The notes under the pieces are model-generated. The model did not search any database, was not told the DNA's origin, and was given only the letters and a program-made list of their open reading frames with translations. Position numbers and translations under genes: made by a program. Below, piece after piece: positions 36,182-55,961 of a stretch of DNA of 64,000 nt. The stretch is taken from contig JBCDMB010000010.1 in NCBI GenBank assembly GCA_038744685.1, positions 1 through 64,000 on the forward strand. Reading direction: 5' to 3'. Within the stretch, counting starts at the first letter, position 1, and every line of letters begins with the position of its first letter. The stretch is from Verrucomicrobiota bacterium (lineage in GTDB: Bacteria; Verrucomicrobiota; Verrucomicrobiia; Opitutales; Puniceicoccaceae).

Positions 36182-37534
36182 TTAGTTATAGTGCTTTTGT
36201 AGCGTTCGGGGATCTACTCCAAGAATATCGGCTGCTTTTCGCGTAGTGCGATGGACTTCGCGGGCCCGTCTGGCATAGAGCCCAACCCAGTCGGAGAGTG
36301 GGATCTCCGCGCTTTGATAGAGGCGGGTGATCTCAGGTGCTTCTGACGGATCCCCGATTTCATATCGGCCTGTGACCACGATGTTGCGAATTGCCTGCTC
36401 AAGTTCTCGAAAGTTTCCCGGCCATCCATACCCATCGGGAATTTGATCCCGGAGGCTCTCGCTGATCTCTGGGGCTACCGTAGCGGAGGCCGACTCGCCA
36501 AACAGATTCCTGCAGACGAAATAGACAAAGCGCTCCAAATCGTCCGGTTCATCCAAGAGGATTGAGTGAAGCGAGGGGGTCCGCACTTGGTCTCCGCACA
36601 GTCGGTAGAAGAGATCCTCCCGAAAGCGGCCTGCCTTCATTTCGGCTCCCAGATCACGATTGGTTGCTGCGATGACTTTGCCGCCGAAGGACTGGGTGCG
36701 ACTCTCTCCGATTCTCTGAAATTCTCCCGATTGCAGGAGGCGGAGAAGCTTTACCTGGAGGTCCTGCCCGACGTCGCCGATCTCGTCCAAGAATACGCAC
36801 CCGGAGTCTCCAGCGGTCTCGAACAGGCCTTTGCGGTCGGTATGGGCTCCAGTGAAGGAACCGCGCACATGGCCGAATAGTTCGGACTCCAAAATGGTTG
36901 GTGAGAGAGCAGACAGGTTTACGGGATAAAAGGTGGGCTGGGTCTCATTGGAAAAAAGTGCGCTCCCCGAGTCGTAGGACAGAAAGCGGGATTGGCCTAT
37001 CGCTCGAGAGACTAATTCTTTTCCCGAGCCCGAAGGTCCGAGAACGAGGGTAGGAAATCGACCGACAGCTTGAAACATCCACAACTGGAATCGCTTCATG
37101 TCCCGTGTGAAAATAGACTCCCAGATGCGTCCTCGTAGGTCTTGAACTGGTTTCGCGTGACCGGTCACCGAACGTTCGATTTGATTGAATGCCCTCCGCA
37201 GTTGAAAAAAGCAGGCGAAAAGATGGGCAGGTTCGAGCCAAGCCGACTCCTCCGCCGCGGAAATAACCGTTTTTCGAGGAGCGAATTTTTCCGAAAACTT
37301 GCGAAAGACTCTTCGATTGACGGCGGACTGTGTGCCCCCGGCCTCGACGATTTTATCCAGGTCTACAATCGTCTCGTGATAGAGCCGGGATAAACAAGAG
37401 TAGGCGGCGGGCTCCTTGAACCGGGTAGGAAGCGTGTCGGCTGCGATTTGCCGGCCCACCTCTGCTTCAAAAGGATCCAGGACCTCGATAATAGCGGCTA
37501 TCCTTTCCTCCCAAGAGTGAGCACTTCTTTCCAT
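36182..37534 (-). CDS. sigma-54-dependent transcriptional activator (AAA+ bEBP)
   Basis: About 451 residues. An N-terminal ~180-residue helical domain unlike a receiver or PAS domain is followed by the AAA+ domain: Walker A GPSGSGKE, the sigma-54-contact loop GSFTGAHTDRKGLFETA (GAFTGA variant with Ser), Walker B GCVFLDEIGDV and GWPGNFRELEQAIRN. The C-terminus is a short Fis-like helix-turn-helix (TRKAADILGVDPRTLQKHYN). With no phosphoacceptor it probably senses a ligand or partner through its N-terminus. It is divergent from the VIT/vWA gene, its likeliest target. A TTG at 37597 would add 21 residues. Confidence 0.9.
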   Translation of the reverse strand: MERSAHSWEERIAAIIEVLDPFEAEVGRQIAADTLPTRFKEPAAYSCLSRLYHETIVDLDKIVEAGGTQSAVNRRVFRKFSEKFAPRKTVISAAEESAWLEPAHLFACFFQLRRAFNQIERSVTGHAKPVQDLRGRIWESIFTRDMKRFQLWMFQAVGRFPTLVLGPSGSGKELVSRAIGQSRFLSYDSGSALFSNETQPTFYPVNLSALSPTILESELFGHVRGSFTGAHTDRKGLFETAGDSGCVFLDEIGDVGQDLQVKLLRLLQSGEFQRIGESRTQSFGGKVIAATNRDLGAEMKAGRFREDLFYRLCGDQVRTPSLHSILLDEPDDLERFVYFVCRNLFGESASATVAPEISESLRDQIPDGYGWPGNFRELEQAIRNIVVTGRYEIGDPSEAPEITRLYQSAEIPLSDWVGLYARRAREVHRTTRKAADILGVDPRTLQKHYN

Positions 37535-37681
37535 CGTGCCGAGAATCCGGCATTCAGCCGCGGAACGTTCGGGTAGAAACGGATTTGCAAAAACCAAGGT
37601 TTAAAAGCACGGGAGGATAGTAAGAAGTTGGCGAGAATGCATACAAATTCTGTATTTTAGGAATACAAAATTTGCAGTAAA

Positions 37682-37716: not shown

Positions 37717-37791
37717 CTATATACCGCGCAATATCAGTGTTTAATGAAAACAGAAAGATTTGTGGCATGGACAGTGTAATAGCTGTAGTCC

Positions 37792-39843
37792 ATGAAAAAT
37801 CATTCCAAGTTCATCGCACGGCTTTTTGCCGTTACCACCCTTCTGTTGGGGTCGATTTCCCACGGAGCGGGTATACTAACACCTACGGGCAGTGCGGATC
37901 TGGGAGTTCGCATGCTGGATCATCATGTCGATGTCCGAATCACTGATGGCTTTGCGCAGACCACGATCTTACAGACGTTCTCCAATCCGAACCCTCATGA
38001 CGTTGAAGCACTGTACGCTTTTCCGGTTCCGGAGTCAGCAAGCCTTTCATCCGTCGTAATTCATTCGGGTGAAACGGTGTTAGAGGGAGAGGTGATTCCG
38101 CGGGAGGAAGCTGAGCGAATCTATGGCGAAGAAAAGGCGAAGGGGAACGATGTCGGAATGGCTTCGAAGGAAAGCTACCAACGGTTCGAGTTTCGCGTTT
38201 TTCCCGTTCGACCCAACGTAGAAACGAGGATCGAGGTCATTTACTATCAGCCGCTTTCCCTCGATGCGGGTATGGGGCGCTACCTCTATCCAATTGAGGA
38301 AGGAGGAACGGACGAACAGGCGGAATCGTTTTGGACACGGAACGAAGCCGTAGAGCGATCCTTTTCCGCCAATGTCCGGATCCATTCCGGATATCCACTC
38401 GATGGAGTTCGGGTAAAGGGCTTTCCGGGTGATCCGGTCCAATTGGACGAGAATACCTGGGAGTGGTCATTCTCTGATGCCGGTGGGACCTTGAATCAGG
38501 ATCTGATCGTATACTATCGACTGGCCGATAATCTTCCGGGGCGCGTGGACCTTTTGTCTTACCGTAGTTCGGAAAACGATCCGGGATACTTCATGCTAAC
38601 GCTGACGCCAGGAATCGATTTGGAGCCGATAAAGAATGGAGCCGACTATCTCTTCGTCCTCGACACCTCGGGGAGTATGTCCGGAAAGATTGCAACTTTG
38701 GCTGGAGGAATGGAACGGGCTTTGGGAGAACTTCGTCCCGAGGACCGTGTTTTCGTGGTAACCTTTTCCAATAACGCGACTTCGCTGACGCGGGGGTGGG
38801 TGCCTGCCACGGAGAAAGGCGTCCTTTCTCTGATTGAGAAAGTTCGCAATCTAAACTCATCCGGGGGAACCAATCTCTACGCTGGCCTCAAGGCCGGCCT
38901 CAGGGAGGTCGACGCAGATCGCCCGACCAATCTCATTCTTGTGACGGACGGAGTATCGAATCAGGGAATCCTTTCTCCGGCAAAGTTCCACGAGCTCATG
39001 AAGACGGTCGATCTGCGGTTCTTTGGATTCCTCATGGGGAATAGCGCGAATGCGCCGTTGATGAAGGTTCTTTGCGAAGCATCAGATGGATTCTCGGCTC
39101 AGGTTTCCAATGCGGACGACATTGTCGGGCAAATTCTCCTCGCGAAGGAGAAAGTCGCCTATGAGTCCCTTCTGGACGTGGAAGTGGAGTTCAAAGGCAT
39201 TGGTGCTTCGGAAATCACTGAGGAATTCACCGGACGCGTGTTTCGTGGACAGCAGTTGTCGTTGTTTGGCCGATACGCGAAACCGGGAGAGGCTGAGATT
39301 GAGCTGAAAACCCGACAAACCGGTGGAGAGAAAATCTACTCCACGACGGTATTGTTTCCTGATAAGAAAATCGATTTCCCAGAACTCGAACGCCTGTGGG
39401 TCATGAGCCGGATTGAAGAAGTGGAGCTGCAGCGGGATCTGGGCCGTCTTCCGGGAGAGGAGGCATCGGATGCTATTGAAAACCTAGGCGTGGAATACCA
39501 GTTAGTGACCGACGAGACTTCGATGATCGTTCTTTCTGATGAGGGATTCATCCGTCATGGAATCGAGCGCCGAAATAGGGATAGGTTGGCTCTGGAATCC
39601 GCCGCCCAGACCGCTCGGATACAACCACCTGCATCTGGTTCGAATGCTCCGGTTCGTCCTCAAACCACGAGGGTCGATGAGAAGAAACCGATGTTTAATC
39701 AGTCTGCTCCGCGGATTGGAGGTGGAGGTGCCTTTGGCTGGGAAGCCTTGGTCCTCCTAGGCCTTCTCGTCGGGGCCGGTTGGTCGGGAAGGAAGGCTTT
39801 GGAGGCCAGAAGGCGAAACAGTTGGGACGGGAGAAACAGGTAG
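37792..39843 (+). CDS. secreted VIT + von Willebrand factor A protein with GlyGly-CTERM-like tail
   Basis: A 683-residue protein. A signal peptide (residues 1-25) precedes a VIT domain (about 30-150; LDHHVDVRITDGFAQTTILQTFSNPNPHDVEALYAFPVPESAS) and a vWA domain opening with FVLDTSGSMSG, an intact DxSxS MIDAS metal site (about residue 287). The C-terminus has GGGG (643-646), a hydrophobic helix (GWEALVLLGLLVGAGW) and a basic end (RKALEARRR), the form of a GlyGly-CTERM sorting signal. VIT/vWA proteins are known partners of dedicated sorting enzymes in marine bacteria. A rhombosortase-like gene lies two genes downstream. Confidence 0.85.
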   Translation: MKNHSKFIARLFAVTTLLLGSISHGAGILTPTGSADLGVRMLDHHVDVRITDGFAQTTILQTFSNPNPHDVEALYAFPVPESASLSSVVIHSGETVLEGEVIPREEAERIYGEEKAKGNDVGMASKESYQRFEFRVFPVRPNVETRIEVIYYQPLSLDAGMGRYLYPIEEGGTDEQAESFWTRNEAVERSFSANVRIHSGYPLDGVRVKGFPGDPVQLDENTWEWSFSDAGGTLNQDLIVYYRLADNLPGRVDLLSYRSSENDPGYFMLTLTPGIDLEPIKNGADYLFVLDTSGSMSGKIATLAGGMERALGELRPEDRVFVVTFSNNATSLTRGWVPATEKGVLSLIEKVRNLNSSGGTNLYAGLKAGLREVDADRPTNLILVTDGVSNQGILSPAKFHELMKTVDLRFFGFLMGNSANAPLMKVLCEASDGFSAQVSNADDIVGQILLAKEKVAYESLLDVEVEFKGIGASEITEEFTGRVFRGQQLSLFGRYAKPGEAEIELKTRQTGGEKIYSTTVLFPDKKIDFPELERLWVMSRIEEVELQRDLGRLPGEEASDAIENLGVEYQLVTDETSMIVLSDEGFIRHGIERRNRDRLALESAAQTARIQPPASGSNAPVRPQTTRVDEKKPMFNQSAPRIGGGGAFGWEALVLLGLLVGAGWSGRKALEARRRNSWDGRNR

Positions 39844-39961
39844 AGGAAAATGAGGTAAGGTTTCGCGGGCAAAAGGGGTATTTCCGAATCTCTCCATCTC
39901 CTAAGAATGGCGATAGGGAAACATCGGGAGCCCCGCCCGTGAGACCGCAACAAACGAGAAT

Positions 39962-40336
39962 ATGAACAAGGAAGATTCACGAGGCTTTCATTTATCGAGA
40001 TCTTCGATTCGAGCTTTAGCGCCTCTTCTTTCGTTGTCTTTGTGCGGTTGTGAGACGTCCATGCTGATCTCGGACAGTGACATTACCGGGGCTCAACAAA
40101 CGCATGAGAAGCTGATTGGTCTCCCGATTTCGTTAGCTATTGATACGGTTATGCTCCCACTCTTGTTTGGTGCTTACGTGGAGGTCGCTGGGTCACAATT
40201 GTTCGGAGACACGGATGACACTTGTGAAAGCCGGAATGTGGTGGCGATAGATTCACCGGTTGTAAACAAATCACCGAACCCTCTCGAATCTTCTCTTAAC
40301 GAAGCAGACATTTGGTGGAGAAGAGATGAAAACTAG
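39962..40336 (+). CDS. small YceK-like lipoprotein
   Basis: A 124-residue protein with an N-terminal signal ending in a lipobox-like LSLCGC (Cys near residue 30). The region IGLPISLAIDTVMLPLLFG matches the 'PLSLxxDTxLLP' signature of YceK/YidQ-type lipoproteins. Function of the family is unknown. It lies between the VIT/vWA gene and the rhombosortase-like gene and overlaps the latter by 11 bp, so all three may form one unit. Confidence 0.65.
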   Translation: MNKEDSRGFHLSRSSIRALAPLLSLSLCGCETSMLISDSDITGAQQTHEKLIGLPISLAIDTVMLPLLFGAYVEVAGSQLFGDTDDTCESRNVVAIDSPVVNKSPNPLESSLNEADIWWRRDEN

Positions 40337-40946
40337 GATGATAGATTTAGGAAACGGGTCCCGTTACGGACTTTTTCTCCTCCCAGCAATCCTCCTTGGC
40401 GGGTTCGCGACCCTTTTCCCGGGGTTCGCGTCGATGAACGCTCTCGCGCTGGCCAACGGACATTGGTGGACGCTTTGGACGGGGCACTTTCTCCATTGGA
40501 CTACTGGTCACCTGATCTGGGATTGGAGCCTATTCATGATCTGCCTCATGTTTCTCGCAAAAGGAGGCTGGAGGGTATGGGGCTGGATTGTAGTCGGGTT
40601 GCCGATCCTTGGGATAGGAATTTGGCTGGCTCGTCCCGAGATGTGGGAGTATCGCGGGTTATCGGGGATCGATACCGTCCTCTTTGTGCGGGTTGCAATG
40701 GGGTTCTACGGATATCGCAAATGGCTCCCCCTTAGCGGCCTCGGCCTGAAAATCGCCTACGAGTTTCTGACAGTGCAAACTATCTTCAGCGGTGATTTGG
40801 GAAGAAACAATGTTCCAGTACCGGAAATACATATGATGGGTCTATTTTTTGGACTGATCTGGTGCTGGGCGAGCAACAGGAATCATGTTACTGATCGACA
40901 GCACGAACATCTGATTCCTTCAAAATCTATTCCCGCCGAAGCCTGA
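40326..40946 (+). CDS. rrtA: rhomboid-family intramembrane protease, rhombosortase-like
   Basis: A 206-residue protein with about six membrane helices. Rhomboid landmarks are HFLHWTTGHLIWDWSLF (residues 54-70; the usual Asn is Asp), catalytic serine S113 in YRGLSGIDTVLF and catalytic histidine H169 in VPEIHMMGLFFGLIW. The compact size, the YRGLSG form and the nearby GlyGly-CTERM-type substrate fit the rhombosortase subfamily rather than a general GlpG-like rhomboid. It would cleave the C-terminal helix of the VIT/vWA protein in the inner membrane (inference). Confidence 0.8.
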   Translation: MKTRMIDLGNGSRYGLFLLPAILLGGFATLFPGFASMNALALANGHWWTLWTGHFLHWTTGHLIWDWSLFMICLMFLAKGGWRVWGWIVVGLPILGIGIWLARPEMWEYRGLSGIDTVLFVRVAMGFYGYRKWLPLSGLGLKIAYEFLTVQTIFSGDLGRNNVPVPEIHMMGLFFGLIWCWASNRNHVTDRQHEHLIPSKSIPAEA

Positions 40947-42240
40947 TTTTTGCGAGGATCAACAGAATCACCAGGGTGCTAAGGAACCAAGGAGCAAAGA
41001 ATTCGAGGGCTTCCCCGAAAGCTACATCACTTGATGCTCCTTCGCTCCTGAGTCTTTCAATGAGAAAACCGTAGAGGAGAGACAGACCGCCGTAGCCAAG
41101 ATTCATGGCGAGCCCGCGAAAACTAAGCACTGTGGCCCGATGCCGGGACTCCACTTCCCGGTTTAGGTAGTGGCTAAGGAAAAAGTCAGCGAAGCGCATT
41201 GAGACCATCGTGGTCACTGCAAACAGCAGCCCAACTTGCGGTAGAAGAAACGATAGACCAAAGAGCGACGCCGCCAACCACGCTCCTAGTAGCAGTGTGT
41301 TTGTGAGAACGCTGAAATTTTCGACCATAAACCTCGCCACCCGCGGTAGGAAGAGGCCGAGAAGAGCAACCCCTGCTCCGATAATCCCGTAATAGGCCTC
41401 CGGAATCTGAATCAGGCGGAAGTACTCGCTCACCAGAGTTACGAAGACCCGCGAAACGCTGTCGAAAAAGAGGCCTCCAAAAATGAGAAGGAAAGGAATG
41501 GGTGAGCGAAGAATCCACAGTCCCGTTTGTAGGGTCGTTTTCCACGGAGCCGCTAGCGAGGGGTCATCGTGATCTGTTTGGGTTTTTGGCTCTATCATTC
41601 GGAAGGCGGCCCAAAGCGCTCCGAAAGCGGTGAGAAGATTCAGATAAAGGGGCCAACGGAGTGTGTCGTCCTGTTGCCATTCCCGCGTGAACCCGAACCA
41701 TCCGGCCACTTTGCCAACCAGGTTGGGATCGTAGACCGCGGCGCCGACGATCATGGCGATAAAAAAGCCTACGCTTTGCAGCTTCATCAGTGCCTCGAGG
41801 ACCCTCGGCCATTCCCCTTCCCTACCCCGTTCGGAGAGCGTGTCGTAGGCGAGCGCTTCATCGGCACCACTGGCGGCAGCCTCAGCGGCTCCGGACAAAA
41901 TGCGGTTCACTAGAAAAATCCAAAAGAGCCATGGCGATGCCCCGATCGGAGCTAGGCAGATCAGGATCATTTCGAGGACCATCAGACAGCCTGCGATACG
42001 AACGAGCCGGCGCCTCCCCCAACGGTCTGCCAAAGCCCCCGAGGGAACCTCTGCGATAATAATGGTAGCGGCCCAGGCGGCGTTGAGAATGGCAAACTGT
42101 TCGAGGGTGAGCCCGAAATCCAGAAACAGGATCGTAAAGATGGGATAGTAGAACCGGGCGTTAAAAAGAACCCGGAAGGCAATAAACATCCGCACATTAG
42201 AGAGCCGTAGAATGCTCTCCGAGCTCCTACTTTCAGTCAT
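40927..42240 (-). CDS. MFS transporter
   Basis: A 437-residue major facilitator protein with 12 predicted helices. The loop 2-3 motif ALADRWGRRRLVRI (GxxxDRxGRR) is clear, as is SGAAEAAASGADEALAYDTLSERGR in the helix 4-5 region. Substrate unknown; the layout resembles drug-efflux-type or YfkF-like MFS proteins. Its ATG overlaps the HAD-phosphatase stop (ATGA), and its stop overlaps the rhombosortase-like gene end to end. Confidence 0.88.
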   Translation of the reverse strand: MTESRSSESILRLSNVRMFIAFRVLFNARFYYPIFTILFLDFGLTLEQFAILNAAWAATIIIAEVPSGALADRWGRRRLVRIAGCLMVLEMILICLAPIGASPWLFWIFLVNRILSGAAEAAASGADEALAYDTLSERGREGEWPRVLEALMKLQSVGFFIAMIVGAAVYDPNLVGKVAGWFGFTREWQQDDTLRWPLYLNLLTAFGALWAAFRMIEPKTQTDHDDPSLAAPWKTTLQTGLWILRSPIPFLLIFGGLFFDSVSRVFVTLVSEYFRLIQIPEAYYGIIGAGVALLGLFLPRVARFMVENFSVLTNTLLLGAWLAASLFGLSFLLPQVGLLFAVTTMVSMRFADFFLSHYLNREVESRHRATVLSFRGLAMNLGYGGLSLLYGFLIERLRSEGASSDVAFGEALEFFAPWFLSTLVILLILAKIRLRRE

Positions 42241-55491: not shown

Positions 55492-55796
55492 GATCTTTGA
55501 AGCACGGGCATTCGCTTTTCTACTTTGGTGGAGGAGAGGAAAGTCCGGACACCGTAGAGCAGGATTCCCTCTGAAAAGAGGGGCACGGCGTGTAAAGGCG
55601 ACGTGACGGAAAGTGTCGCAGAAAACAAACCGTCCCGCGAATGCGGGATAAGGGTGAAAAGGTGGGGTAAGAGCCCACCGCTCGTCAGGTAACTGGCGAG
55701 GCAGGATAAACCCAATCCGGTGCAAGGCGAATAGAGGATCGGGTGGCTCGCCCTTTGGTCCCGGGTTTAGCTGCATTTCGCTTCGGCGAAAAGATC
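55492..55796 (+). ncRNA. rnpB: RNase P RNA (class A)
   Basis: Conserved regions appear in order. GAGGAAAGTCCGGAC (CR I) lies near 55530. CAGAAAACAAACCG (CR II/III area) follows. GGATAAACCCAATCCGGTG followed by CAAGGCGAATAG (CR IV/V) lies near 55706. GATCTTT at 55492-55498 can pair with AAAGATC at 55790-55796 to form helix P1, giving the ends proposed here. A hairpin AGATCGG...CCGATCT just after may act in 3'-end formation. It is the catalytic RNA that trims pre-tRNA 5' ends, partner of RnpA. Confidence 0.93.
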
Positions 55797-55961
55797 GGTT
55801 TGGGCCGATCTAGATGAATGGATGCCATTCCTTGCCAACGGCGAGGGATACAGAATCCGGCTTACAGTGCTTCAAAGGTCTTTTTGATGGTTTCAGGAAA
55901 CGGTTTATCCCTCGACATCGTTGGCCGAGGAATAAACGCTGTCGGTGAAAGTCCCGGTATC

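Follow-up and report, generated by a model that had tools for sequence, protein, structure and literature searches.

A probable dedicated rhombosortase cassette for a VIT/vWA protein, with candidate sigma-54 control, in a Verrucomicrobiota bacterium

Rhombosortases and the GlyGly-CTERM tail were defined in 2011 by Haft and Varghese, who found that a lone target in a genome is usually encoded beside the rhombosortase (Opitutus terrae is among those listed), and that the tails of VIT/vWA proteins can be of GlyGly, PEP-CTERM or LPXTG type, the GlyGly case appearing in their Figure 3C (PMC3237569). In Vibrio cholerae, RssP cuts VesB and exposes the second Gly, which then bears a glycerophosphoethanolamine-type moiety; VesB, secreted by the type II system, remains on the cell surface (PMC6219818; PMC13393428). 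Here we describe a locus in a 64,000-nucleotide stretch of a Verrucomicrobiota bacterium (contig JBCDMB010000010.1, positions 1 to 64,000; hereafter the window), in which a gene for a protein with VIT and von Willebrand factor A (vWA) domains lies upstream of a rhomboid gene and divergent from a transcription activator gene. We read it as a dedicated, probably sigma-54-controlled, surface-display cassette, and put the probability of this reading at roughly three in four. The original prediction for this DNA called such a locus little described in this kind of bacterium; this holds only in part, because both dedicated pairs (Opitutus terrae) and VIT/vWA GlyGly cargo were published in 2011 (PMC3237569). 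In the mostly non-subscription literature that we searched, Haft and Varghese is the only paper joining rhombosortase with von Willebrand. The kind of pair is already known; as far as this literature goes, the cargo-specific enzyme group, its residue pattern and the sigma-54 control are new.

Three plus-strand open reading frames (ORFs) had been placed within 37792-40946, and all are present there; the divergent sigma-54 activator and its promoter were overlooked. The start of the rhomboid gene falls within the lipoprotein-like ORF (11-base overlap), which makes coupling of these two plausible; the single transcript assumed in the original prediction for the vWA, lipoprotein-like and rhomboid genes may exist. 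The features, in window coordinates, are:

36182..37597, minus strand: sigma-54-type AAA+ transcription activator gene, divergent from the vWA gene (Pfam Sigma54_activat)
37642..37654, no strand assigned: first of two operator-like inverted repeats, TACAAATTCTGTA, 115 bp ahead of the -24 box
37664..37676, no strand assigned: second such repeat, TACAAAATTTGCA, 93 bp ahead of the -24 box and spaced 22 bp from the first
37763..37778, plus strand: sigma-54 -24/-12 promoter-like element, TGGCATGGACAGTGTA, with a degenerate -12, 13 nt before the vWA start codon
37792..39843, plus strand: VIT/vWA protein gene, 683 aa (Pfam VIT and VWA; signal peptide read from the sequence)
39718..39729, plus strand: GGGG motif, residues 643-646, the predicted cleavage region (GGGA, residues 644-647, is invariant in 19 homologues)
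39730..39840, plus strand: hydrophobic helix and basic C-terminus of the sorting tail (read from the sequence; helix at residues 650-679 in the structure model)
39962..40336, plus strand: small lipoprotein-like ORF, 124 aa (weak YceK/DUF1375 likeness)
40326..40946, plus strand: rhombosortase-type rhomboid gene, 206 aa (TIGR03902 match; GlpG fold)
40662-40664, 40671-40673 and 40830-40832, plus strand: rhomboid residues S113, D116 and H169

With the Haft and Varghese system (TIGR03902/TIGR03501; for instance the pair of Opitutus terrae PB90-1), the locus shares the rhomboid subfamily, the Gly-helix-basic tail and the single adjacent target. It differs in that the tail gives no TIGR03501 match and the enzyme scores below the TIGR03902 cut-off, while the vWA-linked enzymes as a group lack the hallmark His four residues after the dyad Ser (S+4), have changed active-site neighbours and are associated with a sigma-54 activator and promoter. 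From RssP and VesB we would expect cleavage after GlyGly, modification of the new C-terminus and surface retention after type II secretion. In V. cholerae, however, one enzyme is matched by six GlyGly-CTERM proteins, the named ones being mostly proteases and a nuclease, whereas the window has one adjacent VIT/vWA cargo. The VIT/vWA sortase target of marine proteobacteria (TIGR03788, with sortase TIGR03784) likewise pairs such a cargo with an adjacent dedicated sorting enzyme, but there the tail is of the LPXTG kind and the enzyme a cysteine sortase, where the window has GGGG and a rhomboid; with 183 bits, the window protein falls short of the TIGR03788 cut-off of 552, and its tail lacks LPXTG.

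The pairing of vWA gene and rhombosortase is strongly supported by its distribution among genomes. Close vWA orthologues (E < 1e-160) were found in 11 of 87 related genomes, and the rhomboid adjoins the vWA gene in 11/11; the two other genomes of the same genus (sister species) have neither the orthologue nor its rhomboid. Across 388 surveyed genomes of the phylum, a rhombosortase was adjacent in most genomes carrying a vWA orthologue. Scanning named genomes gave 80 further vWA loci, labelled in their records as Verrucomicrobiota, Lentisphaerota, Kiritimatiellota, Planctomycetota, Acidobacteriota, Thermodesulfobacteriota, Myxococcota, Pseudomonadota, Spirochaetota, Elusimicrobiota and a few candidate phyla. 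Many of these loci come from metagenome bins and may carry the wrong taxon label. A rhombosortase match stands beside the vWA gene in 71 of the 80 (71/76 untruncated loci), and that of locus L154 lies about 2 kb away. Of the nine loci without an adjacent enzyme, four stop at a contig end and five are in genomes that have it elsewhere. Loci L067 and L068, of another family, fell below the threshold, although L067 has a divergent rhomboid ORF adjacent. In every intact vWA tail a Gly-rich motif is followed by a hydrophobic stretch and then basic residues at the end, and none in the 80-locus set has LPXTG or PEP-CTERM. Of the three-gene co-occurrence proposed for survey in the original prediction, the part that joins vWA gene and rhomboid is found; the objection that homologues might lack tail and neighbour fails because homologous vWA genes keep both.

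The VIT/vWA protein matches Pfam VIT (E 1e-25) and VWA_3 (E 2e-15). Its metal ion-dependent adhesion site is complete (DTSGS at 291-295, T360 and D386), with D291, S293, S295, T360 and D386 invariant in 19 homologues. The best PDB match of its AlphaFold model (predicted local distance difference test, pLDDT, 80) is inter-alpha-inhibitor heavy chain 1, over ~600 columns; such heavy chains share the overall VIT/vWA fold across about 600 residues, but are eukaryotic and have no bacterial sorting tail. At the C-terminus, SAPRIGGGGAFGWEALVLLGLLVGAGWSGRKALEARRRNSWDGRNR, GGGG (643-646) is followed by a hydrophobic stretch, modelled as a helix at 650-679, and a basic cluster, just as it had first been read. 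This tripartite GlyGly-CTERM-type architecture is found at the extreme C-terminus of the window protein and all intact homologues. A family tail model, built from 28 tails (36 positions) and run against the window's own genome, places the window tail first among all matches (E 1.3e-4), and by this measure its likeness to the family tails is more than chance; the remaining matches are without the Gly motif and several are PEP-CTERM tails. Because just one Gly-type tail turned up, the locus looks like a one-enzyme, one-target pair, which agrees with the dedicated single-target pair originally proposed.

The rhomboid has TIGR03902, the rhombosortase model, as its sole NCBIfam match (E 6.7e-20, 71.6 bits), bearing out the identity first given to it, and 56/56 aligned vWA-linked rhomboids match the same model (best E 2.5e-35). 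The Ser/His dyad noted earlier, S113 and H169, is intact and invariant across the 56 aligned homologues. Its structure model is GlpG-like (pLDDT 88) and GlpG is its nearest solved relative; the GlpG model TIGR04239 gives no match to it at E 1, and its S+4 residue is Thr, not aromatic. A quick maximum-likelihood tree groups it with other vWA-linked rhombosortases and separates it from the two placeable generic rhomboids of the same genome.

His at S+4 (SGxxH) is the rhombosortase hallmark, present in virtually all, while GlpG has Tyr205 there (PMC3237569). Our sole canonical comparator, the Shewanella plasmid gene rrtA, has this His. In the 71 vWA-linked enzymes S+4 is Ser, Cys or Thr, rarely Met, Val or Leu; Asp occurs at S+3 in 62/71 and Arg at S-3 in 62/71. 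By profile alignment, Asp also stands at the position of GlpG Asn154, an oxyanion-hole residue, in 64/71. Further rhombosortases in Opitutales adjoin other cargos, in two tail classes assigned by reading the tails. Those beside proteins with GGGGAPSLWF-type tails have Asn, sometimes Asp, at S+3 and Glu at position 142, and at least one such cargo (in L025) has a metallopeptidase-type HExxH region. Those beside YTGGG-ending proteins retain the oxyanion Asn and have Ala, Val or Gly at S+3. On the quick tree the vWA label requires 2 changes vs 30.3 in shuffles; the GGGGAPSLWF and YTGGG types fall with unassigned ones in one 31-member clade (support 98). What these data show is that the residues track cargo clade, not that they decide the cargo, and in these alignments the vWA-linked rhombosortases are a cargo-specific group with altered active-site neighbours. 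More tentatively, and as an idea we would not yet favour over its negation, rhombosortases may have divided by cargo into clades, with the residues around the active site setting which cargo is chosen and perhaps the chemistry too; the VIT/vWA clade would then be a remodelled intramembrane transamidase with its own sigma-54 switch. Two Opitutales loci (L224 and L208) have two tandem rhombosortase genes of differing residue type beside GGGGAPSxWF-tailed proteins.

The divergent activator matches Pfam Sigma54_activat (E 1e-45), and a GSFTGA loop (GAFTGA-type) can be read in its sequence, as expected of a sigma-54-dependent activator; an RpoN gene is present in the same genome. Activator homologues lie divergently upstream of the vWA gene in 40 of the 69 loci with enough upstream DNA, across several phyla. 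In the 250 bp before the vWA gene, 34/44 activator-bearing loci have a strong -24/-12 element, compared with 1.9% of random windows from the same loci, 1/44 on the opposite strand and 10/32 vWA loci without the activator. What lends weight to the window's own element is its conservation, at an unchanged position, in L103 and L105, the nearest relatives. No sigma-70-like site was seen on the plus strand upstream of the vWA gene. TRCA-N5-TGYA inverted repeats occur in 17/45 activator-bearing loci vs 0.9% of random 300-bp windows, mostly at similar spacings, and two or more in 6/45 loci and 0 random windows. The pattern was first seen in an alignment of six loci and then counted in all, so those six are not independent of the hypothesis while the rest are. 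The 22-23 bp geometry of the window's repeat pair recurs in L103, L105 and L118. Together these features suggest that the cassette is probably under sigma-54 control. We considered and rejected the idea that the activator belongs to this cassette alone: it is present in many relatives that have no close vWA orthologue, mostly in other gene contexts. Because the activator family occurs without the cassette, the link is strong, not exclusive.

Two further observations concern this regulatory region. A gap of 13 nt separates the end of the -24/-12-like element from the vWA start codon (in several relatives, 13-15 nt) and there is no obvious Shine-Dalgarno sequence, so a leaderless vWA transcript is possible. 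At L191:2463-6527, an activator homologue lies beside a rhombosortase and a lipoprotein-like protein with a Gly-rich C-terminal tail, which reads as the same regulator type with another cargo.

We propose the following course of events. The activator would bind the two inverted repeats and, with RpoN, fire the -24/-12 promoter ahead of the VIT/vWA gene, switching on this gene and probably the downstream ones. The VIT/vWA protein, a putative adhesin resembling inter-alpha-trypsin inhibitor heavy chains and having an intact metal site, would leave the cytoplasm by Sec and stay anchored in the inner membrane through its GGGG-helix-basic tail. The adjacent, cargo-specific rhombosortase would then cut in or after the Gly motif and probably pass the new C-terminus to a lipid amine, as is thought for V. 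cholerae RssP on VesB. The protein would finally reach the cell surface, plausibly via a type II-like secretin. Membrane insertion, cleavage, lipid transfer, outer-membrane passage and surface display are inferred by analogy with V. cholerae, and activator binding and regulation of the cassette from the promoter and repeat sites; adhesion is likewise a predicted role.

Several results weigh against the cassette reading. The window tail matches neither TIGR03501 (curated cut-off 15.5 bits) nor any other NCBIfam model, even at E 10; among the 11 close orthologues two match TIGR03501 weakly (best E 0.098), and over the whole genome this model gives two matches, both internal and neither C-terminal. 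The rhomboid's 71.6 bits lie below the curated TIGR03902 cut-off of 84 bits, and the hallmark S+4 His is found in 0/71 vWA-linked rhombosortases. Scoring against these two models, as suggested with the original prediction, thus leaves both partners short, although the rhomboid does not group with GlpG-type rhomboids. The window's -24/-12 element is weak taken alone (p 0.045), with its degenerate -12, and the activator family also occurs in genomes without the cassette and in other gene contexts. For passage to the surface, the genome has a GspD-like secretin match (E 3.5e-88, 296 bits) below the cut-off of 351, by which a true type II secretion system is not established. Some of these points could mean that the activator merely lies next to the cassette and has no part in its control, transcription then starting at a different promoter. 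The imperfect -12 box, the existence of the family without the cassette and its absence from 29/69 loci all favour this, but we think it unlikely given the strong right-strand -24/-12 elements before the vWA gene in most activator-bearing loci and the inverted repeats at recurring spacing.

Other explanations concern the enzyme and the fate of its cargo. The rhombosortase may cut the tail to shed the VIT/vWA protein, without lipid attachment. Rhomboids are hydrolases, V. cholerae GlpG cutting in the VesB linker releases that protein (PMC13393428), and the chemistry of the vWA-linked enzymes may differ because they are without the S+4 His of known rhombosortases. However, the characterised RssP yields a C-terminally modified, surface-retained product (PMC6219818), and the cross-phylum pairing of tail and cargo fits anchoring at least as well, so that shedding seems to us a minority possibility, about as doubtful as the unrelated activator. 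That the tail is a plain, uncut C-terminal membrane anchor, with the adjacent rhomboid acting on another substrate, would explain why the tail fails the GlyGly-CTERM model. It sits poorly with the invariant GGGA, with the co-occurrence of rhomboid and tail in nearly all homologous loci and with the Haft-type dedicated pairs already known (PMC3237569), and we regard it as improbable. We give least credence of all to the rhomboid being a GlpG-like housekeeping protease adjacent by chance; GlpG is indeed its nearest solved relative, but its best family model is rhombosortase, it adjoins the vWA gene in 71/76 loci and the tree sets it apart from two generic rhomboids of its own genome.

The recurrence of the cassette in about ten phyla, often with its own sigma-54 switch, makes the 2011 pairing a widespread, testable system. 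Native bacterial rhomboid substrates are still few, and a conserved one-enzyme, one-cargo pair offers a clean system for rhombosortase cutting, attachment and the residues that choose cargo. The activator suggests a regulator through which expression of the cassette could be studied.

The original prediction also saw this locus as swapping a sortase system for a rhomboid-based one. The same genome, however, encodes a second VIT/vWA protein, ~25% identical to the window's, on contig C12 (L042, 90758-92431); its tail is PEP-CTERM-like (15.9 bits, cut-off 16), and the gene directly downstream encodes an exosortase whose closest match is XrtQ. The two loci are alike in cargo domains, C-terminal sorting tail and a sorting enzyme directly downstream, but differ in having an exosortase or a rhomboid. 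The sister species (G001 and G002) have the exosortase pair only, without the rhombosortase pair. A single cell thus appears to sort its VIT/vWA proteins with two enzymes that are unrelated to each other, and this argues against a simple swap, which we do not retain; these proteins rely on several sorting systems, of which rhombosortase is one. Such proteins have repeatedly acquired C-terminal sorting enzymes (sortase, exosortase, rhombosortase), twice in this genome.

The lipoprotein-like ORF between the two genes was first described as YceK-like. This likeness is weak: it matches DUF1375 with E 0.0014, at 19.2 bits just under the gathering score of 20.3. We rejected it as a conserved third member of the cassette; no similar gene was seen in the vWA-rhombosortase gaps of relatives, which elsewhere hold unrelated small exported proteins or nothing. 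The proposed trio is not kept in other lineages and, judged by its distribution, the lipoprotein-like gene is lineage-specific. In seven loci (L033, L034, L035, L036, L111, L147 and L152) its place is occupied by a family of small exported proteins with a conserved RRGYFGINLFNxIPxIDxVHG-like motif, two checked members of which (L033 and L035) have no Pfam or NCBIfam match. In a Pelagicoccus bin (L130:5001-7382) the vWA ORF continues past the GG-helix-basic tail into a small exported protein that is a separate gene in other Opitutales; the rhombosortase of that genome lies elsewhere.

Downstream in the window, a convergent gene at 40927-42240, read from its sequence as a major facilitator superfamily (MFS)-type transporter-like gene, shares 20 bases with the 3' end of the rhombosortase gene. 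A bacterial class A RNase P RNA lies at 55496-55880 (240.7 bits).

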